From: an uncultured Eubacteriales bacterium
Lineage (GTDB): Bacteria > Bacillota > Clostridia > Christensenellales > Aristaeellaceae
Length of the DNA: 55,438 nt
Direction of reading: 5' to 3'
NCBI GenBank assembly: GCA_902789795.1
Contig: CADAPM010000010.1
Span: 1 to 55,438, forward strand
Positions 31,639 through 42,097 of this stretch are shown piece by piece. The stretch's first letter is position 1. Each line of letters starts with the position of its first letter. The notes beneath the pieces are model-generated. The model was given only the letters and a program-made list of their open reading frames with translations, did no database searches and had not been told where the DNA came from. Both the position numbers and the translations under genes were made by a program.

Positions 31639-32178
31639 TTATAACAAATATTTCACGCACGCTTCAACGTCTTTCATATCCGCAGTGGGCTCAAAGCGGG
31701 CCACGACGTTGCCCTGGCGGTCGATGATGAACTTGGTGAAGTTCCACTTGATGTCAGGCTTCTTGGCCCAGTCCGGGTCCGCCGCGGCGAACATCTTTTC
31801 CAGGAGCTCCTTGTAGGGGTGCTCGCCAAACCCTTCAAAGCCCTTCTCGGACTTCAGGTAGGTGTACAGCGGCAGCTCGTTTTCTCCGTTCACGTCCGCC
31901 TTCTTCATCTGCGGGAAGGTGGTGTTGAAGTGCATGGTGCAGAACTCGTGGATCTCGTCATCAGACCCCGGAGCCTAGCCGCCGAACTGGTTGCAGGGAA
32001 TGTCCAGGATCTCCAGACCCTGGTCGTGGTAATCGCGGAACATCTGCTCAATAGGCGCGTACTGGGGCGTGAAGCCGCAGCCGGTGGCAGTGTTGACCAC
32101 CATGATGACCTTGCCCCTGTAATCATTGAGGTCGAGGGTCGCGCCTTTGCCCGTGATGACTTTGTAATCGTAGATCAT
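31639..32178 (-). pseudogene. Glutathione peroxidase with in-frame amber stop
   Basis: Reading from 32178, 67 codons encode the N-terminal half of a glutathione peroxidase: KVIMVVNTATGCGFTPQY with peroxidatic Cys34, then ILDIPCNQFGG. A TAG (bases 31975-31977) follows, and the same frame continues APGSDDEIHEFC and on to the normal C-terminus with WNFTKFIIDRQGNVV. Intact homologues have Gln in FGxQxPG at this place, so a single CAG-to-TAG change explains the stop. Other genes here also end in TAG, so codon reassignment is unlikely. The catalytic Cys, Gln and Trp/Asn regions are otherwise preserved, so the mutation is recent or a sequencing error. It could still act if the amber codon is suppressed. 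Confidence 0.85.
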
Positions 32179-32193: not shown

Positions 32194-32586
32194 TCATTTA
32201 TTCAGCAGCGCTTCGACCAGTGCCCGCTTCTCATACAGCACACAGCCGCCCTCGTGGTCGTCCGCCTCGTCAAAGATCTTCAGCCATTCCCCGCTGGTCA
32301 GCTGGCGCACGGGCGCCGCGTCCACCGTCGCGTGGTTGCAGCGGGAATAGCAGCCCGCGCAGTGCAGGTTGCACTGGCTGGTGATGCTGGCGATCAGGAA
32401 AGCCGGGATGTGCTCCCCCGCGTCCTCCGCCTTCCGGCGCTTTTTGGACGCGGCGCGGCTGGCCAGGGCGAACCGGGCCATGTACACGCTCTCCTTGGGG
32501 TTTTTCAGCGTCGCCTTGATGATCTCCCCCACAACCCGTTCGACGCCGTGGGTCATGTAGGACTGGATGTCGAATGCCTGCTCCAT
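32194..32586 (-). pseudogene. Radical SAM protein remnant, internally deleted
   Basis: This 130-residue frame has the start of a SPASM-type radical SAM protein, with the [4Fe-4S] motif Cys72-x3-Cys76-x2-Cys79 in TSQCNLHCAGCY. After WLKIFDEAD near residue 109, where the barrel should continue for about 300 residues, the sequence jumps to HEGGCVLYEKRALVEALLNK. That looks like the C-terminal tail of such proteins. The simplest reading is an in-frame internal deletion that removed the barrel. The product cannot be an active radical SAM enzyme. It lies directly upstream of the broken peroxidase gene, so the two may be decaying together. Confidence 0.7.
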
Positions 32587-33527: not shown

Positions 33528-33968
33528 TCAGCCCAGGCGCTTGCCGAGCAGCTCATAGAGCAGGACATACAGCGTCTGCGCCTTCTCCGGGGGCAGGTCG
33601 ATGCAGGAGGCCACCTTGCCGGGGACCTCTTTCGCCCGCTCCCGCAGGGCCCTTCCCGCTTCGGTCAGGGTGATGATGACCACCCGGTCGTCCTCCGTGC
33701 TCCGGCGCCTTTCCACCCAGCCGGCCTGCTCCATTTTCTTGAGCAGCGGCGAGAGGGTGCCGTTGTCCAGCATCAGCTTTTCGCCGATCTCCGAAACGGA
33801 GATCCCGTCGTGCTCCCAGAGCACCAGGAGCACGATGTACTGTGTATAGGTCAGGCCCAGCGGCTTCAGCCACGGGGTGTACAGGTTCGTCACGCTGCGC
33901 GCGGCGGCGTAGAGCGGGAAGCACAGCTGGTTGTTGAGCTTCATCGCCTCGTCGTACGGATGTTCCAC
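33528..33968 (-). CDS. ohrR: OhrR-like MarR-family peroxide-sensing repressor
   Basis: This 146-residue MarR winged-helix protein is close to OhrR. The N-terminal NQLCFPLYAAAR carries the peroxide-sensing Cys16, corresponding to Cys15 of Bacillus OhrR. YTQYIVLLVLWEHDG and LDNGTLSPLLKKMEQAGWVERRRS form the DNA-binding wing. OhrR represses peroxide-defence genes until its cysteine is oxidised. The start is GTG 33968 preceded by AAAGGAGGGGAG. It heads a - strand run containing a glutathione peroxidase gene and a nitroreductase gene, and its promoter carries a matching operator-like palindrome, so it is probably autoregulated. Confidence 0.88.
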   Translation of the reverse strand: MEHPYDEAMKLNNQLCFPLYAAARSVTNLYTPWLKPLGLTYTQYIVLLVLWEHDGISVSEIGEKLMLDNGTLSPLLKKMEQAGWVERRRSTEDDRVVIITLTEAGRALRERAKEVPGKVASCIDLPPEKAQTLYVLLYELLGKRLG

Positions 33969-34050: not shown

Positions 34051-34080
34051 AATGACCCTCACTCCGGTTTGGGGGTCATT
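34051..34080 (-). terminator. Terminator overlapping the end of the MATE fusion gene
   Basis: On the - strand AATGACCC (34080-34073) pairs with GGGTCATT (34058-34051), followed by TTTTG. The left stem lies within the last codons and the loop contains the stop codon of the MATE fusion gene, so coding sequence and terminator are shared. Confidence 0.7.
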
Positions 34081-35804
34081 TTGATCGTCAGGTTATTCAG
34101 GTTCAGCGAATAGGTGTAGCGGATATCGTCGGCCATGGCCATGACCACGCGGATGCCCAGGGCGTCCTTGCCCTCCCGGGGCGTATAGCTGACCGGGTCG
34201 AAGGAGCGGCAGTCGTCCCGGAAGCGCAACACCCAGCGGCCGCCCTTGTGCTGGATGCGGACGGACAGGTGGTTCTTCCCGTCCGGCGCAAAGCCGTGCA
34301 GCACCACGTTGGTCGCCATCTCCTCTACGCACAGGGCGATATGGTTGGCCGTCTTTTCACTCTGCCCATGCGCTCTGCAGAAGCGCTCCGCAGCCTCCGC
34401 GGCGGTCACCGCGTCGGTCACGGTGTGGATCTCCGTTTCCAGCAGGTTTTCGGGCGCCACGCCGAAATCCCGGTTCAGCAGCAGGTAGGACTGGGCCTTC
34501 AGGGTAAAGCCCCCGGTTTTGCGCCAAACGTATATCGCCGTCAGCAGGAGGGTCAGCGCCTCCCCCGCCACAAAGTACAGCCAGACGCCCGGCACGCCCC
34601 AGGGGATGCTGAACAGCAGCCCGCAGAGCGCCGGCAGCGCCGCGCCTTCGAGCACGGAGATGGTCTCGGTCAGGACCACCCGCCCGGTGCCCTGGTACAG
34701 GCTCTTGAGCGCGTTGTTCACGCAGCAGAAGCTCAAGCCCAGCGCGTAGAGCCGGAGCCCCAGCACGGTCAGGTCCCGGGCCGTGCCCGCCTTGGGGATG
34801 AAGACGCCCACCAGCACCGGGGCGGCCAGGGCCAGCGCCGCGCCCACCGCGATGCCCAGGATCACGCCGTACCGGGTCAGCAGCTTCAAAAGCTCCCCGA
34901 GCCCGCGGCGGTCCTCCTCGTGGAACAGGATGCCGGACAGCGTCAGGGAGACGCCGCCCACCCCGGTCGAGATGCAGTTGCTGGCATTGCCGATGGTCAT
35001 GAGCACGGAATAGGCCGCCACCGCGTCGCTGCCGCCGGCCCGCAGAAGGATCTTGTTGAGCAGGAAGACCAGCACCACCGAGGAGGCCATATTGAACACC
35101 GCGGGCACGCCGCCGGCCAGCAGCTCCCGGATCTTCGGCGCGGTCACGTACCTGAGCGAGAACCTGAACACGCATTTCGGTGATAGGAAGTATATGAGAG
35201 CAATGACCATGGCCACGTAATAGCTCAGGGAGGAGGCCAGGCCCATGCCGAACATGCCGCCGTGGAAGACGAAGACGTTCAGCAGGTCCAGGGCCACGTC
35301 CGACACCGTCATGCCCAGCACGGCCACGATCAGCAAGCTGCTCTTGCCCGCCATCTGCAAAAAAGGCACCAGCACCAGCGCGCCCATGGAGCCGGGCGCG
35401 CCGATGATGAAACCCGCCAGGTAATCCCGCGTCTGATCGAACAGCTCGCCCTCTCTCCCCGCGCCCATGGCCGTAGCCAGGGGATCGCGGAACAGGAGCA
35501 CCAGGAGCATGAAGGCCAGGGACAGGCCCAGCATCAGCGCTACGGCGGAGGAGTAGCCCCTGTCGGTCTCCTCTTTGGAGCCGCTGCCCAGGGACCGGCT
35601 GCAGGCCACCTGAACGCCCGCCGCCAACATGCTGCCGATGGCGCCGATCACCAGCAGGACCGGATTGGCCAGCCCGTAGGCGGCGATGGCCTGCACCCCC
35701 AGGCAGCGCCCGATCACGATATTGTCGATCAAAAGGCATAAAGAAACCGTCAGCGCAGACAAAGTCTGCGCTGCCAGCATCTGTTTGATCAGTTTGCGTA
35801 TCAT
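34059..35804 (-). CDS. MATE transporter fused to RsbW-like GHKL ATPase domain
   Basis: This 581-residue protein has an N-terminal multidrug/oligosaccharide-type MATE transporter (about 1-445, twelve helices, for example LCLLIDNIVIGRCLGVQAIAAYG). It then runs into a cytosolic GHKL domain (about 455-581). The N-box is VEEMATNVVLHGF; the G1 box is RFRDDCRSFDP, with the usual DxGxG glycines missing; the G2-like part is GKDALGIRVV. This C-terminal part resembles anti-sigma kinases such as RsbW/SpoIIAB. The gene overlaps the upstream one by four bases (ATGA). It is the end of an operon encoding a SpoIIE-type phosphatase, an RsbW-like kinase and a STAS protein. Partner switching may thus act directly on transport, which is inference. 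Confidence 0.85.
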   Translation of the reverse strand: MIRKLIKQMLAAQTLSALTVSLCLLIDNIVIGRCLGVQAIAAYGLANPVLLVIGAIGSMLAAGVQVACSRSLGSGSKEETDRGYSSAVALMLGLSLAFMLLVLLFRDPLATAMGAGREGELFDQTRDYLAGFIIGAPGSMGALVLVPFLQMAGKSSLLIVAVLGMTVSDVALDLLNVFVFHGGMFGMGLASSLSYYVAMVIALIYFLSPKCVFRFSLRYVTAPKIRELLAGGVPAVFNMASSVVLVFLLNKILLRAGGSDAVAAYSVLMTIGNASNCISTGVGGVSLTLSGILFHEEDRRGLGELLKLLTRYGVILGIAVGAALALAAPVLVGVFIPKAGTARDLTVLGLRLYALGLSFCCVNNALKSLYQGTGRVVLTETISVLEGAALPALCGLLFSIPWGVPGVWLYFVAGEALTLLLTAIYVWRKTGGFTLKAQSYLLLNRDFGVAPENLLETEIHTVTDAVTAAEAAERFCRAHGQSEKTANHIALCVEEMATNVVLHGFAPDGKNHLSVRIQHKGGRWVLRFRDDCRSFDPVSYTPREGKDALGIRVVMAMADDIRYTYSLNLNNLTIKMTPKPE

Positions 35805-36421
35805 TCCGTTTTCCCGTCAGGCATCTTCTTGAGGATGGTCATTTCGACCGTACGTCCCCGAATGGACACCTTCACCTCGTCCGCCACATGGGCGACCACG
35901 GACTTTTCCAGCTCGTCCCAGGCTTCCCGGGCCGGGCCGTCCTCTTTTTCCGCCTGGGCATGCAGCGCGCCCTTGTACCGCACCATGGACCATTCCCAGT
36001 CCAGGGCGGGCTTGGAAGAGTGGTCGTACATGCCGGGCAGCAGCAGCGGGTTGGTGAAGGCCACCACGTCCTCGTCCTCATTGCGGTCGAAGAGGTCGCG
36101 CAGCCGGCCCATCAGGCCCCGGGCGGACTCATTCCTGCCGCTGCTCGCAGTGGAGAGGAGCCGCTCCCGCTTGCCGCTGTCCATGCGTGTTTCGACCTGC
36201 AGGTGCAGGCCGTACTCATGATCCTGGGTCTCGATCCAGAACTTGCCTTCCGTTTCCCCGGTCAGGGAACCCATCAGGCCCATCATTTCCTCGGTCAGCA
36301 GGCGCAGGTGTAGGGCATCCTTGGCGGGCAGGTCATAATAGGCCGCCGTCTTTTCGGCCTGCTCCAGCACCGCGCCCATCTGCAGTTCCCGGCTGGAGAC
36401 CTTGACCACATCTGTCTTCAT
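35801..36421 (-). CDS. Degenerate GHKL-like protein of the partner-switching operon
   Basis: This 206-residue soluble protein has no clear family. Residues about 20-90 read like the front of an RsbW-type domain: a helix LHLRLLTEEMMGLMG where the N-box would be, but without its Asn, followed by a strand KFWIETQDHEYGLHLQVE. No DxGxG or G2 motif is present. The rest is helical and charged, ending VSIRGRTVEMTILKK. It may be a pseudo-kinase or adaptor that binds the STAS protein. It lies between the STAS gene and the MATE fusion and overlaps the latter by ATGA, implying linked synthesis. Confidence 0.6.
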   Translation of the reverse strand: MKTDVVKVSSRELQMGAVLEQAEKTAAYYDLPAKDALHLRLLTEEMMGLMGSLTGETEGKFWIETQDHEYGLHLQVETRMDSGKRERLLSTASSGRNESARGLMGRLRDLFDRNEDEDVVAFTNPLLLPGMYDHSSKPALDWEWSMVRYKGALHAQAEKEDGPAREAWDELEKSVVAHVADEVKVSIRGRTVEMTILKKMPDGKTE

Positions 36422-36431
36422 TCAGGCTGCC

Positions 36432-36734
36432 TCACTGGATGTCCAGGATGTCGGCAAAGCCCGTCACATCGAAGACCTCGCGGACGATCTCGTTCACATG
36501 GGTGACCGTCATGCCGCCCTTGCGGCTCATGATCTTATGGGCGGAAAGCAGCACGCGCAGGCCGGCGGAAGAGATGTAGGCCAGGTTGGCAAAGTCCAGG
36601 GTCAGCTTCTCGGCCCCGTCCATTTCCGCGTTCAGTTCCTTTTCAAGCTCCGGGGCGGTCATGGTATCCAGACGGCCCTCCAGGGCGACCTGCAGGTGGG
36701 AGCCTTCCTTCTTCTTGGTGATCGTCATCGTCAT
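36432..36734 (-). CDS. STAS-domain anti-anti-sigma-type protein
   Basis: This 100-residue single STAS domain is of the SpoIIAA/RsbV type. LTLDFANLAYISSAGLRVLL carries the phosphorylatable serine position (Ser55/Ser56), preceded by the N-terminal strand LQVALEGRLDTMTAPEL. In the classical switch the kinase phosphorylates this serine and the PP2C phosphatase removes the phosphate; both enzymes are encoded in this operon. GGAGG lies upstream, and the gene is only eight bases from the previous stop. The usual partner, a sigma factor, is absent from the window. Confidence 0.9.
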   Translation of the reverse strand: MTMTITKKKEGSHLQVALEGRLDTMTAPELEKELNAEMDGAEKLTLDFANLAYISSAGLRVLLSAHKIMSRKGGMTVTHVNEIVREVFDVTGFADILDIQ

Positions 36735-36742
36735 TTCCTCCT

Positions 36743-37366
36743 TCAGTTCCAGGGCGTATAGCGGTACAGGATCTCGGACAGGTGGCCGTTTTCGTCAAAG
36801 GTGACCTCGGTGTTGTCCGCAAAGGAATGGATCTCTTCGTTCAGGTACCGGGTCAGCAGGTCCTTGAGCGTGAGCTCGGTGGGGTCATCCGCCTCGGGAT
36901 TGCTCCAGTCCATGAAGCGCAGGGTGGAATCCGCCCGGACCTCGATCAGGAACAGGTTCTTGTAGAAGCGGTTCTCCGTCTCGGTGACCGCGTAGTAGTA
37001 GCCCGCTTCGTTCTTGTACAGGTACAGGGTGTTGTACTCGCCGGTCAGCTCGTAGCCAAACTCGTCCTGGCTGATGGCCTTGATCAGGAACTCGTCCGAA
37101 CCGGTCTGCAGGATGTCGCCCGCTTCCAGGGACTCGATCTCGTCCGCCACATAGGTCTCCTGCTCGCAGATCTGCAGGTACAGGGTGGCCTTTTCCATGT
37201 CCTCATCGCTGGCAAAGCCGTCAATGAAGGCCGTGAAGGTCTTGCCTGCCACCAGGTTGCGCAGCGCTTCGGGCACGATGGGCTCCACCGTATCCGCGTA
37301 CGCGCCTGCCGTCATGGAAATCAGGAGCGCGGAGATCAGGAACAGTGCGATCAGTGTCTTTTTCAT
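36743..37366 (-). CDS. Secreted hypothetical protein in the partner-switching operon
   Basis: This 207-residue exported protein has a Sec signal (MKKTLIALFLISALLISMTAGAYA, cleavage before DTV). The mature part is acidic and rich in aromatic residues, with no recognised domain. ATG 37366 follows GGGAGGATCC; the longer frame would start inside the kinase gene. It is odd to find a secreted protein between the RsbW-like and STAS genes. It could be a ligand or partner of the phosphatase's extracellular sensor domain. Function is unknown. Confidence 0.7.
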   Translation of the reverse strand: MKKTLIALFLISALLISMTAGAYADTVEPIVPEALRNLVAGKTFTAFIDGFASDEDMEKATLYLQICEQETYVADEIESLEAGDILQTGSDEFLIKAISQDEFGYELTGEYNTLYLYKNEAGYYYAVTETENRFYKNLFLIEVRADSTLRFMDWSNPEADDPTELTLKDLLTRYLNEEIHSFADNTEVTFDENGHLSEILYRYTPWN

Positions 37367-37383
37367 TATGATGGATCCTCCCA

Positions 37384-37791
37384 TTATATTTTCTTTTTCA
37401 GGCACAGGATGTTGCTCCCGTCCCTGTATTGGTAGCTGACTTCATCCATGGTCTTGCGCACCAGGAAGATGCCCAGGCCGCCGATCGCACGCGCCTCCGT
37501 GTCGAGGGTCGTGTCCGGCTCTTCCTGCTTCAGCGGGTCGAAGGGAATGCCCTGGTCCTCAAAACAGATCGAAAACATCCGGGAGCCCTCGTCAAAGCTC
37601 AGGCGCACGGTGGCGCTACCGGGCCCGTCCGGATAGGCGTACCGGGAGATGTTGCTGAAGATCTCGTCGATCGCCATGTCGATCTGCATTTGGGCTTTCA
37701 TGGAGCAATCCAGTTTTTCCAGTGTCTCATCGATCCACGCGGTCACCCTGGGGATGTTCTCGATCAAAGCAGGCAGTGTCATCTCCTGCAT
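37384..37791 (-). CDS. RsbW/SpoIIAB-like serine kinase (GHKL)
   Basis: This 135-residue protein is a stand-alone GHKL ATPase with intact boxes: N-box MAIDEIFSNISRYAY, G1 FEDQGIPFDP and G2 IGGLGIFLVRKTMD. It matches the anti-sigma kinase family that phosphorylates STAS proteins. It lies just two bases after the SpoIIE-type phosphatase gene and is followed by the secreted-protein and STAS genes, so a full kinase/phosphatase/STAS set is present. Confidence 0.9.
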   Translation of the reverse strand: MQEMTLPALIENIPRVTAWIDETLEKLDCSMKAQMQIDMAIDEIFSNISRYAYPDGPGSATVRLSFDEGSRMFSICFEDQGIPFDPLKQEEPDTTLDTEARAIGGLGIFLVRKTMDEVSYQYRDGSNILCLKKKI

Positions 37792-37793
37792 GG

Positions 37794-39980
37794 TCAGTCC
37801 TCCTTTTCAGCGGCCTGCGGGCCCCTGTATTCCAGACACAGCATGGTCATGTCGTCAAACTGCTCGGCGTCCTGGACGAAATCGTCCACCGCCGCGCGCA
37901 CGTTTTTGAGTGCCGCCAAGGGCTCGGCTTCCGGCGCGGTGTTGAGCGCTTTGACCAGCCGCTCCATGCCGAACAGCTCCTCCTTGGCGTTGGTGGCCTC
38001 CGGCACGCCGTCGGTGTAGACGAACAGCCGGGCGCCGGGTTCGAGCTGGAGCGAATACTCCTTGTAGCGCATCCCCTCCATGCCGCCGATCACGAAGCCG
38101 TGCTTGTCCTTGCACAGCTCGTAGCTGCCGCCGGGACGGCGGATCATGGGATACTCGTGCCCCGCGTTGGCGGCAGTCAGTTTGCCGGTGGAAAGCTCCA
38201 GGATGCCCACCCACACGGTGACGAACATCTGCGGCTCGTTGTTGGAGAAGATCGCGTCGTTGGTCTTGGCCAGGATCTCCGCGGGCGAACGTCCCAGCAT
38301 GGCGACGCTCTGCAGGATGATCTTGCTGGCCATCATGAACAGCGCCGCCGGCACGCCCTTGCCCGATACGTCGGCGATCACCATGCACAGATGGTCGTCG
38401 TCGACGAGGAAGTAGTCGTAGAAGTCGCCGCCCACTTCCTTGGCGGGATCCATGGAGGCGTAGATGTCGAATTCCGGCCGGTCGGGGAAGGCGGGGAAAA
38501 TGTGGGGCAGCATGGCCGCCTGGATCTTGGTCGCCAGGGAGAGCTCCGTGCTGATGCGCTCCTTCTCCGCCGTGACCTGCTGGATGGTGCCCATGTACTC
38601 CACGGTCTTGTGCGAGATGCTGGCAAAGGCTTCCGCCAGCTCCTCCACCTCGTCGCCGGTGCGCAGGCTGTCATCCATCTTGAATTCCAGGTTGTCCTCG
38701 TTCAGCTCGGAGATCCGCCGGGTGATGGTGTTCAGCGGCTTCACGATGCGCTTGCCCAGGATCAGGGCGCTCGCCAGGGTCAAAAGCGTCACGAGGATCA
38801 GGAGCACGATGACGGTGCGCTTGGAGTTGCCCGTGTTTTCCTGATATACCTGGACCGCCTCTTCCTGGATCCTGGCCGAGCTGGCCGTCAGCATCGCTTC
38901 CGGCTGCTTGCTCAGCTCCGCGTCAAAGGCAGACACCAGCACCCAGCCCGTCGCCCGGATGGGCGAGGAGGTCAGGTAGTACTGCCCGTTCTGCAGCGCT
39001 CCCTGCTCAACGCCGGTGCGCTCGCCCTTCAGCGCGGTCTCGACCGCCTTGGCCAATACCGGCAGGGAGGACAGGCGCAGGTCGCTGCCCCGTTCCGCTT
39101 CCGGCAGGGGGAAGGCCTCGGCCAAGGGCGTCAGCACGGCGCAGCCGTTCTGGTTGACCAGCAGGCGATATTCGCCCTCCACCGTGGAGGAAGCCAGGAC
39201 CTCCTCCATCTCGGCCAGGAACATGTCCGTGCCCACGACCGCCTGCAGGCTGCCGTCCGGGCCGTAGACCGGCATGGCGCACTCTACGCAGTAGGCCCCG
39301 GTATTGGCGTCCGGCTCACCGTCGGTGAACACCAGGCCGCCTTCCCGCACCGCCTTCTGGTACCAGCCGCGCTGGCGCGGGTCGAAGCTGCGGAGCTTGC
39401 CATCCCTGAACCAGGTGGACGAGGTGGCGCTCACCGACAGGTGCGCGCCCTCCGGGATCCCGATGTACACGGTGGCCACATCCGCGGCGGGACAGAGGGA
39501 AACCAGCGTCTCCGAAAGGTTGGAGAAGAGACCAAGCTTTTCCACGATGGCCGGGTCGGAAGGATCCACGCCCTCCGCATACAGCACCTTCGCCTTCCAC
39601 TGGCCGTCATCCGCGGGATCGGGCGACTCATAGGGCACCGGATCGTAAGCGTCCGGATCAGCCAGCAGGCTGGTCACGCGGTCCGCCACGAACCGCACGC
39701 GCTGGGCCGCGCCGTCAAACATCGCGTTGGCGATATCGGCCTCCACGCGGGTAGAGCGCTCCAGGGTCTTCTCGACCACGGCGTCCATGACCTGGCCCGT
39801 GATCTCCCCGATGGCCGCCTGCTGCTGGGCGTTGGATTCCGACGCCAGATCAGTCAGCATGTTGCTGTGGTGGATCGAGACCGCCATGTAAGCCGCCGTC
39901 AGCAGCAGCACCGTGAACAGGATCAGGTTGAAGACCTTGTTCTCGATCCCGCCGATGACAAGATTCTTAATTCGTCTCAT
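37794..39980 (-). CDS. dCache-HAMP-SpoIIE/PP2C serine phosphatase
   Basis: This 728-residue membrane sensor phosphatase has a first membrane helix at about 15-35 and an extracellular double-Cache sensor at about 40-345. A second membrane helix (VIVLLILVTLLTLASALIL) follows, then HAMP with VKPLNTITRRISELNED, and a SpoIIE/PP2C domain at about 460-720. The metal-binding motifs are complete: EVGGDFYDYF, VIADVSGKGVPAALFM, LFVYTDGVPEATN and FDDMTML. It should dephosphorylate the STAS protein in response to an outside ligand. It is the input of the partner switch. Confidence 0.93.
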   Translation of the reverse strand: MRRIKNLVIGGIENKVFNLILFTVLLLTAAYMAVSIHHSNMLTDLASESNAQQQAAIGEITGQVMDAVVEKTLERSTRVEADIANAMFDGAAQRVRFVADRVTSLLADPDAYDPVPYESPDPADDGQWKAKVLYAEGVDPSDPAIVEKLGLFSNLSETLVSLCPAADVATVYIGIPEGAHLSVSATSSTWFRDGKLRSFDPRQRGWYQKAVREGGLVFTDGEPDANTGAYCVECAMPVYGPDGSLQAVVGTDMFLAEMEEVLASSTVEGEYRLLVNQNGCAVLTPLAEAFPLPEAERGSDLRLSSLPVLAKAVETALKGERTGVEQGALQNGQYYLTSSPIRATGWVLVSAFDAELSKQPEAMLTASSARIQEEAVQVYQENTGNSKRTVIVLLILVTLLTLASALILGKRIVKPLNTITRRISELNEDNLEFKMDDSLRTGDEVEELAEAFASISHKTVEYMGTIQQVTAEKERISTELSLATKIQAAMLPHIFPAFPDRPEFDIYASMDPAKEVGGDFYDYFLVDDDHLCMVIADVSGKGVPAALFMMASKIILQSVAMLGRSPAEILAKTNDAIFSNNEPQMFVTVWVGILELSTGKLTAANAGHEYPMIRRPGGSYELCKDKHGFVIGGMEGMRYKEYSLQLEPGARLFVYTDGVPEATNAKEELFGMERLVKALNTAPEAEPLAALKNVRAAVDDFVQDAEQFDDMTMLCLEYRGPQAAEKED

Positions 39981-40009
39981 TCATTCTCCCCTTCCGGGAT
40001 GGTATTCTT

Positions 40010-40038
40010 CCGGCCTGCCTGGGATGCAGGCAGGCCGG
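40010..40038 (-). terminator. Strong hairpin between SH3 protein and phosphatase genes
   Basis: CCGGCCTGCCTG (40010-40021) pairs perfectly with CAGGCAGGCCGG (40027-40038), 5-base loop. No T-run follows on the - strand, so it is more likely an attenuator or a processing/stability element within the operon. Confidence 0.7.
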
Positions 40039-40050
40039 ACGGGCTGGGTT

Positions 40051-41223
40051 TTAAGCAGCGGGCACGAAGTCCAGTTCGCTCAGGAAGTCGATGCACATCT
40101 GGGTCTGGGCGTCGGTCAGCGTCTGGTTCTTGGCCGAGGGATTGGGGGTCATCAGGAACTCGATGGAATATCCCTTGTACACGGACAGGATATCCACGAA
40201 GTCGGCGTCATCGCCCACTTCCTTGGCTACCAGCAGCTTGGTGCCGTAGGCGGTCTCCTTGTAGGAGATCTCCACGTCGTTCATTTCCGTGAAACTCTCT
40301 TCGAGGGTCGCCAGCGCTTCCGCGGGCAGGTCGTTCATCCGGTCCACATTGGCGTACATCTCGTCAAAGGCGATGGTCAGCTGCAGGGTGGGCTTCTCCG
40401 TGTCCGCGGAGGAGATGAAGGCGGTGATCCTGGAGCCCAGGGTGTTGATCAGCTGCATGGTATAGCCTTCGGGCAGCTTGCACTGCAGGGAGAACTCGCC
40501 GTTCACGTTCAGGGAGCCCATCTGCTCCTTGACGGGAGCCGCCGGCTCCTGGATGACTTCGCCCATCACGGCCACGTAGTTCTTGCTGACATAGCCGGTC
40601 TTGCCGGTGGCGGGGTCGATCGCCTTGTACCACTTGTTCGTCTCTTCGATGGCGGTCAGCTCCGTGCCGTCCGCCAGGGAGTAGATGCGGTCCGCCGCCA
40701 CGCCGGGGCCGACGCGGAAGTTGACCCAGCCGGAGGTGCGGCTGGCCTGCACCCTCAGCACCAGCGGAGCCGCCAGGGAGCGGGCGCTCTTGAGCTGCTT
40801 GTTCAGCTCTTCCAGGTTCCTCTTGCGCTCTTCTTCCTTGGCCCTCTTATCCGCCTGCTGGTCGGCATCCTTGGGCTTGCTCTTGACCAGGTAGCGGGTC
40901 ATCACGTAGCCCACGCCGTCCTTGCCCTTGGAGAACTTGATCACGGACCAGTCCGCGTTGATGATCACGGGGCTGAGCACGGTCACCTTCGTGCCGTAGT
41001 CCAGCTGGCCGATCACGTTCTTGCCGGACTTGGGCTCGCTGCGCACATTCAGCTTGCCCTTGTTCTTGGTGGAGACATACATGGTCTTGGGCCAATCCTT
41101 CGGGTCGATGCCCATGATCTGCTCATCGGTCATGTAGCCGGGTTCGCTCTCCATCAGGGCCGTCGGCACCATGGACAGGAGCATCACCGCGATCATAAGC
41201 AGGGTTACGATCTTCTTTGCCAT
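40051..41223 (-). CDS. Secreted SH3b-domain protein
   Basis: This 390-residue exported protein has an N-terminal Sec signal (MAKKIVTLLMIAVMLLSMVP) and two bacterial SH3 modules. The first (about 48-110) has KLNVRSEPKSGKNVIGQL; the second (about 165-220) has VNFRVGPGVAADRIYSL and TGYVSKNYVAV. A charged coiled-coil segment (about 118-148) lies between them. The last ~150 residues are unrecognised. SH3b domains often bind peptidoglycan, so it may act at the cell wall. It precedes the phosphatase gene in the same operon. Confidence 0.85.
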   Translation of the reverse strand: MAKKIVTLLMIAVMLLSMVPTALMESEPGYMTDEQIMGIDPKDWPKTMYVSTKNKGKLNVRSEPKSGKNVIGQLDYGTKVTVLSPVIINADWSVIKFSKGKDGVGYVMTRYLVKSKPKDADQQADKRAKEEERKRNLEELNKQLKSARSLAAPLVLRVQASRTSGWVNFRVGPGVAADRIYSLADGTELTAIEETNKWYKAIDPATGKTGYVSKNYVAVMGEVIQEPAAPVKEQMGSLNVNGEFSLQCKLPEGYTMQLINTLGSRITAFISSADTEKPTLQLTIAFDEMYANVDRMNDLPAEALATLEESFTEMNDVEISYKETAYGTKLLVAKEVGDDADFVDILSVYKGYSIEFLMTPNPSAKNQTLTDAQTQMCIDFLSELDFVPAA

Positions 41224-41296
41224 AGAATGAACCTCCTATTTTCCCGTGCGCCCGCAGCGCGCGGATGATATCAACAGTAACAGTTCGCGCTGGGTT

Positions 41297-42097
41297 TTAC
41301 TCGCCCTGGTAATCGTCAGCGTTCATCAGGTTTTCAAAGACCAGGCCGTCGCCCGCGTGATCGGAGCAGTCCCAGAGCAGCTGACCCTGATCGTTGAAGG
41401 AGAAGGTGGCCACGCAGCCCTCTTCGTTCACGTCCTGCGCGGACACGAACTCGCCCTTCTCGTCATAGGTGTACACAGTCGCCAGGCCCACCGCGCCGAT
41501 GGTATCCGTCGCGGGGTCATAGGTCCCCTTGAACATCCAGTCCGTGCTCTCAAAGGCGCTGTTGGCCCAGTGAACGTCGATCACATAGATGTCGTCGGCG
41601 TCCCACACGATGTTGATCTCCGCCCGGTCGCACTGGTATTCGCCCTCAAAGCGGCCGATCTTCACAAATTCCATGCCCGCGCCGGCGTCTTCCTTCTGGT
41701 CCTTCCAGATGAGGTGGCCGTTCTCCAGGATCTCGAAGCTGGCGGCGCCGTCCTCATATTCCACGGTCCAGGCTTCGCCCGCCTCATGGGTCTTGGAGCC
41801 GAAGGCCGCATCCTCCAATATGCCGGTCTCCGGGTCGTAAGAGGGTGAATATTCCCACACCAGCTGTTCGTCCATCATATCGCCAGTCGTCTGCCGGATC
41901 ATCACCCGGAAGCCGTCATCCTCACAGTATGCCTCCAGCAGCGTTCCGCCGCAGGCCCAGTTGGTGTCATAGCGCAGGCTTTCGGGATACTTCTGGGCAT
42001 ACCCGGCTTCTTCCTCGGCCAGGGCAGCACTCGCGCACACCAGCATCAGCGCCAGCGCCATAATCATCCATTTTGTTGTTCTCTTCACGTTTCTCAC
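41297..42097 (-). CDS. Secreted hypothetical protein, first gene of partner-switching operon
   Basis: This 266-residue exported protein has a Sec signal (KWMIMALALMLVCASAALA). The mature part is acidic, with many Asp, Glu and Trp residues and beta-repeat-like strands. No domain is recognised. AAGGAGTGAG precedes the ATG. It is the first gene after a good promoter. Like the two other secreted proteins of the operon it may work in the envelope, possibly with the dCache sensor. Confidence 0.75.
   Translation of the reverse strand: MRNVKRTTKWMIMALALMLVCASAALAEEEAGYAQKYPESLRYDTNWACGGTLLEAYCEDDGFRVMIRQTTGDMMDEQLVWEYSPSYDPETGILEDAAFGSKTHEAGEAWTVEYEDGAASFEILENGHLIWKDQKEDAGAGMEFVKIGRFEGEYQCDRAEINIVWDADDIYVIDVHWANSAFESTDWMFKGTYDPATDTIGAVGLATVYTYDEKGEFVSAQDVNEEGCVATFSFNDQGQLLWDCSDHAGDGLVFENLMNADDYQGE

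Follow-up and report, generated by a model that had tools for sequence, protein, structure and literature searches.

Partner switching is known chiefly as a means of controlling sigma factors. What, then, might such a switch control when its operon encodes a transporter and no sigma factor? The question is raised by a 55,438-nucleotide contig of an uncultured Eubacteriales bacterium (CADAPM010000010.1; hereafter the window), in which a single minus-strand operon of eight genes (42097-34059) encodes a dCache-HAMP-PP2C phosphatase, an RsbW-like kinase, a STAS protein, a pseudo-RsbW that we call DEG, and a MATE transporter with a GHKL domain of its own. The original prediction, made from this DNA alone, was that an outside ligand would set the activity of the transporter without transcription. 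Having compared the operon with related loci, we consider it on balance probable that this is a partner-switching module in which the transporter, instead of a sigma factor, is the effector.

The last gene of the operon (34059..35804, minus strand) encodes one polypeptide made up of a MATE transporter (residues 1 to ~438) and a C-terminal HATPase_c_2/GHKL domain (about residues 440-576), as judged by Pfam and by a structural model. That the transporter carries its own GHKL domain, as had been predicted, was borne out by two Pfam families scoring over their cut-offs on the same open reading frame: PF01554 in two stretches (E 2.8e-26) and HATPase_c_2 (PF13581) over residues 463-573 (E 1.6e-11; 44.8 bits versus a cut-off of 27.4). 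The fused domain has a recognizable N-box (E494, E495 and N499), G1 (D530-D531-C532) and G2 (G550). Its AlphaFold model was mostly confident (pLDDT 90.5, pTM 0.87), with the ATP-lid block at ~63, and the transporter part lay nearest PfMATE, outward-facing entries giving TMt values of 0.84-0.88 versus 0.69 for the inward-facing entry 6fhz. The closest solved relatives, DinF-BH and PfMATE (PDB 5c6o, 4lz6, 3vvn and others; best E 4.2e-63 with a profile), share the MATE fold with this part of the fusion, and D27 aligns with D40 of DinF-BH, a key transport residue. The PDB matches stop near residue 438 and thus exclude the GHKL part, which had no match of its own among the PDB entries listed.

Upstream of the fusion lie the parts of a switch, all on the same strand. 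The likely input is the phosphatase (37794..39980), which matched the SpoIIE family PF07228 over profile positions 1-191 of 192 (E 1.6e-50); its dCache_1 match (E 9.9e-11, 42.1 bits) fell slightly below the 45-bit cut-off and its HAMP match (18.8 bits) below a cut-off of 25, and the RxWY...D pattern of the dCache part bears only a partial likeness to the amino-acid motif. The RsbW-like serine kinase (37384..37791; PF13581, E 1.1e-23) has intact N-box, G1 and G2 motifs, with E43, N47, D79 and GGLGI all present in the alignment. The STAS protein (36432..36734) is of the anti-sigma-antagonist type by both Pfam (PF01740, E 3.7e-14) and NCBIfam (TIGR00377, 74.0 bits versus a cut-off of 53.45), and S55/S56 of its conserved SSAGL loop, the predicted phospho-acceptor, were invariant in 15 of 15 aligned sequences. 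DEG (35801..36421) is encoded between the STAS protein and the fusion. From PP2C through MATE the intergenic gaps are almost nil, and the DEG and MATE genes overlap by a shared ATGA; this overlap and the near-gapless run of genes suggest that translation of DEG and MATE is coupled.

Because profile comparison of DEG (206 amino acids) with RsbW-type domains gave only a weak link (probability 12%, E 0.0023), a structural search was done; neither Pfam at E<=1 nor NCBIfam at E<=0.1 had yielded any match. With Foldseek, the AlphaFold model of DEG (mean pLDDT 76, pTM 0.77) had as its best PDB matches UsfX (E 8.7e-5, the top entry) and SpoIIAB (2.9e-4), the UsfX and SpoIIAB entries ranging from 8.7e-5 to 8e-4, with RsbW further down (5e-3). 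DEG is thus, on the fold of this model, a pseudo-RsbW, which agrees with its original description as a degenerate GHKL-like protein. A 19-row alignment showed that M1, E44, E45, E64, R85, D169, E172 and S174 are kept, and that the position of the N-box Asn is occupied by Met (15 rows) or Leu (4 rows), leaving no functional N-box.

In the fetched loci (designated by L numbers; not dereplicated), a STAS gene lay within 600 bases of 30 of 45 DEG open reading frames, on the same strand in 30 of 30. Four of the remaining frames, without STAS, were at locus edges, and 11 had no STAS neighbor; counted in the 11 are the three DEG domains of L101-L103, each joined to another protein, and the second DEG copies present in L024, L105 and L108. 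The three fused copies form the C terminus of an Mbeg1-like alpha/beta hydrolase (L101:5424-7091, L102:5877-7502 and L103:4631-6322); the hydrolase part was checked with Pfam in L101 alone (E 5e-75). DEG is associated both with STAS genes and, as shown below, with the MATE-GHKL fusion, and is likely to be a further partner in the switch.

A genome scan returned 109 relatives of the fusion, of which 80 loci were kept, and many of the record titles name gut samples from ruminants or other herbivores. Beyond the window we counted 122 non-redundant fusions (<95% identity), including two paralogues in the genome of the window itself (G000, 88% complete; other G numbers denote other genomes). A family with this many other members in many assemblies rules out chance or an assembly artefact as the origin of the fusion. 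When 31 other GHKL domains were added and a FastTree tree was rooted at its midpoint, the fused domains formed one clade (100 of 100 after thinning, support 0.865). Among the fusions long enough to score, E494 and E495 were present in 118 of 118, N499 in 112, and D530 and G550 in 115 each. This conservation points to strong selection on the fused domain, with a nucleotide site that is mostly kept and altered in a fixed manner, and retention of the N-box residues means that the fused domain may also be a kinase. The search profiles draw in part on the window and its relatives, and the limit of E<=1e-40 applied to fusions misses divergent ones, such as that carried by G114. As to the two paralogues, one is an orphan (contig C15, L097:8510-10315), and the other (C32, L098:729-2519) has a protein combining STAS, aminoglycoside-phosphotransferase-like (APH) and RsbW domains at 2 kb and a PP2C gene at 3.7 kb.

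We then asked how often the fusions lie near partner-switch genes (STAS, RsbW, PP2C or DEG). Such a gene was found within 6 kb of 29 of the 65 non-redundant fusions whose flanks are each 5 kb or longer (13 of 38 window-like and 16 of 27 divergent fusions), a set that excludes the window and includes the orphan C15 paralogue as a negative. The neighbors were on the same strand as the fusion in 56 of 57 cases. Of 40 ordinary MATE genes taken from 13 of the genomes that supplied the fusions, only 2 had partner-switch neighbors (STAS/DEG on the other strand in L170 and PP2C on the same strand in L196), versus 12 of 20 fusions in those genomes, or 13 of 21 with the window's own (Fisher p 2e-6 against 2/40, a descriptive value since related genomes are not independent). 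The control genes were chosen by hand among the highest-ranking PF01554 matches, with their neighbors unseen and about 5-6 kb on each side; flanks were shorter in L160, L165, L182 and L184, and L172 and L197 are unrecognized by the MATE profile. The count of 13 in 21 omits fusions on G039 C52, G070 C168 and G401 C87, and would become 14 in 24 with three fusion frames added later: L201 (linked), L204 (not linked) and L217 (partial, not linked).

Gene order around the fusions was highly variable, and the linkage recurred in other families. The arrangement was STAS-DEG-MATE in L140 and DEG-STAS-PP2C-MATE-[STAS-APH-RsbW] in L141, and L146 and L152 combine MATE, PP2C and RsbW. The most compact sets were L201, in which STAS, PP2C-RsbW and MATE-GHKL genes are followed by a 1,910-amino-acid nonribosomal peptide synthetase (NRPS) that has AMP-binding and condensation stretches, two of each, and L200, in which MATE-GHKL, PP2C and RsbW overlap and STAS lies 1.7 kb upstream past two other genes. 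The triple STAS-APH-RsbW protein was identified by Pfam at L098:4639-6189, L141:9482-11038 and L150:7142-8716. Genes for MATE-GHKL proteins overlap or abut NRPS genes (AMP-binding, condensation and PP-binding domains) at L201:2-5731 and L204:8705-13990, which suggests that those transporters may export the peptide product.

The association also held at the level of whole genomes. Among 120 genomes of the family, we detected a fusion (E<=1e-40) in 37, DEG in 47 and both in 34, so that 34 of the 37 genomes in which a fusion was detected had DEG, versus 13 of the other 83; among 342 genomes of the class, the corresponding numbers were 14, 29 and 8. Each set of counts includes the window's genome, and since at most 11 MATE candidates per genome (family) or 3 (class) were scored, fusions may be undercounted. 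In G000 itself HATPase_c_2 matched over cut-off six times, the three MATE fusions included; there were also three STAS matches and five for SpoIIE, of which two are partial. One of its STAS-DEG pairs (C20, L104:2449-3308) has no transporter fusion nearby and may pair in trans with the orphan fusion on C15.

Does a sigma factor nevertheless serve as the output? None is encoded in the operon, as judged from its open reading frames and Pfam, and the assembled part of G000 encodes no SigB/F/G-type sigma factor over cut-off; it does contain one SigA-like and several shorter ECF-like matches, and SigA or ECF factors may be targets. SigB/F/G-type factors over cut-off were missing from 11 of 17 fusion-bearing genomes (G000 included), one of the 11 (G143) having a weaker match of 264 amino acids (117 bits versus a cut-off of 234). 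In G014, G200, G214 and G286 an over-cut-off sigma gene adjoins its own HATPase_c_2 gene, and in G288 and G413 the sigma factor paired with HATPase_c_2 falls short of the cut-off, at 200 and 224 bits. In each of these six genomes the sigma/antisigma pair is located away from the MATE module. We also asked whether sigma genes recur beside the fusions and found few: a Pfam scan of 220 of the 247 listed flanking genes gave Sigma-70 region 2 in 2 of 110 genes of batch A5, and for the 110 genes of batch A6, where Sigma70_r2 falls outside the 25 commonest families, 2 is the upper bound. The list omits genes encoding <80 or >1200 amino acids and switch parts already recognized. The claim of a switch without transcriptional output stood for the operon itself, but a MarR/OhrR-like gene (33528-33968, minus strand) lies on the same strand 90 bases downstream of MATE. 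We reject that gene as the switch output: in the loci compared, none of the genes up to 5 kb from DEG or the fusion was related to it (phmmer E<=1e-5).

Taken together, these results suggest the following scheme. The dCache-HAMP receptor would set the activity of PP2C, which would strip phosphate from the STAS serine; RsbW, and perhaps also the GHKL domain of MATE, would phosphorylate it. Unphosphorylated STAS, probably with the pseudo-kinase DEG, would dock at the cytosolic end of MATE, on its GHKL domain, and this docking would change transport. We infer the phosphorylation chemistry, the docking of STAS and DEG and the gating, as well as the sign of the effect, the ligand and the substrate. 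In a mixed version of the scheme, the fused domain would both phosphorylate STAS and be bound by it, which would resemble what SpoIIAB does with SpoIIAA. The linkage of the fusion to switch genes (29/65 versus 2/40), their shared strand and the lack of a SigB/F/G-type factor over cut-off in G000 support in part the original prediction, in which STAS would bind the fused GHKL domain and thereby alter transport.

Several observations weigh against a transporter as the effector. No partner-switch gene lies within 6 kb of 36 of the 65 flanked fusions, including the C15 paralogue. The outcome that was to refute the original prediction, fusions mostly lacking such neighbors, is thus half borne out, and the statement that most fusions have switch neighbors is rejected for this distance; yet DEG is present in nearly all of the family's genomes with a detected fusion. 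At the position of the G1 Gly, 107 of 118 fused domains have Cys, whereas eight aligned RsbW domains keep Gly, and the nucleotide chemistry of the fused domain may therefore differ from that of RsbW. A close relative in L096 (64% identity) has the MATE part, but a search of every frame at E 1e-3 showed no GHKL domain, and L096 was excluded from the fusion counts. DEG also occurs without a detected fusion (13 of 47 DEG-bearing genomes in the family and 21 of 29 in the class), so it may have other targets as well. In 5 of 82 loci an ECF-type sigma gene is found no more than six genes away from MATE, four of the five on the opposite strand (L040:9809-10294, L062:9739-10224, L054:11413-11880 and L096:10377-10844 on the minus strand and L085:740-1231 on the plus strand; two Pfam-checked). 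Finally, since G000 is 88% complete, a missing sigma gene is no proof.

The chief competing explanation, which we regard as unlikely, reverses the direction of signaling. The MATE-GHKL protein would be the input: the transporter would sense its substrate, an active GHKL kinase would phosphorylate STAS, and STAS would act elsewhere through DEG. Conservation of the N-box Glu and Asn and of the G1 Asp in the fused domain agrees with such a kinase, although the Gly-to-Cys change at G1 does not, and DEG domains do occur on other proteins, such as the Mbeg1-like hydrolases. An RsbW domain was found within 6 kb in just 14 of the 45 fusions (out of 122) that have any partner gene nearby; with so few RsbW neighbors, the fused domain may itself serve as the kinase at these loci, which speaks for this explanation. 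The window operon, however, already holds a receptor-phosphatase and a full RsbW, and in L201 and L200, where kinase, phosphatase and STAS are all present, MATE is the odd part.

Proximity might instead reflect shared envelope-stress loci, the GHKL domain being an ATP or energy sensor, or a structural cap, of MATE that has nothing to do with STAS. The many fusions without partner genes would fit, as would the presence of ATP-site residues among the best-conserved positions, but it is difficult to see why ordinary MATE genes in the same genomes should then be so rarely linked, why the linkage should recur across several families or why DEG should track the fusion by genome; this explanation seems to us distinctly improbable. 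We give the least credence, and very little, to an ordinary transcriptional switch in which RsbW binds a sigma factor encoded elsewhere (ECF or SigA) and MATE is merely coexpressed. A housekeeping sigma factor is reported as such a target in Chlamydia (PMC8256260), and the SigA-like and ECF-like matches in G000 and the ECF-type genes near some fusions point the same way. Set against these are the near absence of Sigma-70 region 2 from the scanned flanking genes and two features that this explanation leaves unaccounted for, namely, the GHKL domain on the transporter and the compact sets in which MATE is the sole nonswitch part.

If the transporter is indeed the effector, transport would be opened or closed rapidly and posttranslationally upon the arrival of an outside ligand, and this would account for sets of RsbW, STAS and PP2C genes in genomes in which no SigB/F-type sigma factor is found. 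The fusion family is large, and herbivore-gut bacteria account for many of its members. Another transporter component may be built in a similar way: a GlnQ-like ABC ATPase (L216:4415-5506) has a C-terminal HATPase_c_2 domain (28.7 bits versus a cut-off of 27.4) and lies 1.8 kb from a STAS-DEG pair; a single gene on the opposite strand separates the two, which do not share an operon. This protein and the L101-L103 hydrolases, few as these cases are, suggest that RsbW-like domains act as adaptor heads on several effectors. It is possible, though we hold it more tentatively than the reading of the window operon, that there is a Clostridia-wide class of signaling systems in which transporters (MATE, ABC) and hydrolases have acquired RsbW-like domains, or the dead versions of these (DEG), as regulatory heads, STAS phosphorylation sets transport without transcription, and some MATE proteins are coupled to NRPS genes and gate product export.

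The three remaining genes of the operon encode secreted proteins, whose hydrophobic N-terminal leaders were judged by eye. The first (41297..42097) has no family match over cut-off. The second (40051..41223) contains an SH3 domain by Pfam, and 8 of 41 loci with DEG, counted without dereplication, have a relative of it no more than 5 kb from DEG. The third (36743..37366; 207 amino acids) has no Pfam match, and a longer start at 37405 would overlap rsbW. All eight genes originally listed were found at their coordinates, with parts assigned by Pfam, NCBIfam and structure. Outside the operon, on the same strand, a glutathione-peroxidase-like frame (31642-32178) contains one in-frame TAG after NQFGG, for which mutation, sequence error or recoding is possible, and a radical-SAM-like frame of 130 amino acids (32194-32586) with a CNLHCAGC motif, seen by eye, is apparently truncated.

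How does the module compare with known systems? With RsbU/RsbV/RsbW and SpoIIE/SpoIIAA/SpoIIAB the window shares a SpoIIE-type PP2C, a STAS protein with conserved serines and an RsbW-like kinase, but it differs in having no sigma gene in the operon, an additional protein (DEG) and a kinase-type domain on a transporter. Domain databases list architectures that combine MatE with HATPase_c_2. No MATE-HATPase or other transporter-RsbW fusion appeared in the titles and abstracts that we searched, most subscription papers and all bioRxiv preprints lying outside the scope of that search. Partner switches with nonsigma end points, and STAS proteins acting on transporters, are already known. In the SiaABCD system of Pseudomonas aeruginosa, a PP2C/kinase/SiaC switch is thought to end at the diguanylate cyclase SiaD (PMC7647112); a nonsigma end point is common to both systems, but there it is an enzyme and here, presumably, a transporter with an RsbW-like domain. 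MlaB, a stand-alone STAS protein, binds the ABC ATPase MlaF directly and may regulate it, phosphorylation having only been proposed (PMC7367683); the likeness lies in STAS acting on a transporter, and the available part of that account mentions no GHKL domain on the Mla transporter. The SulP/SLC26 transporters carry a fused STAS domain (PMC8256260). A switch domain thus sits on the transporter in both cases, the STAS half there and the kinase half here, so that the MATE-GHKL fusion appears as the mirror image of SulP/SLC26.

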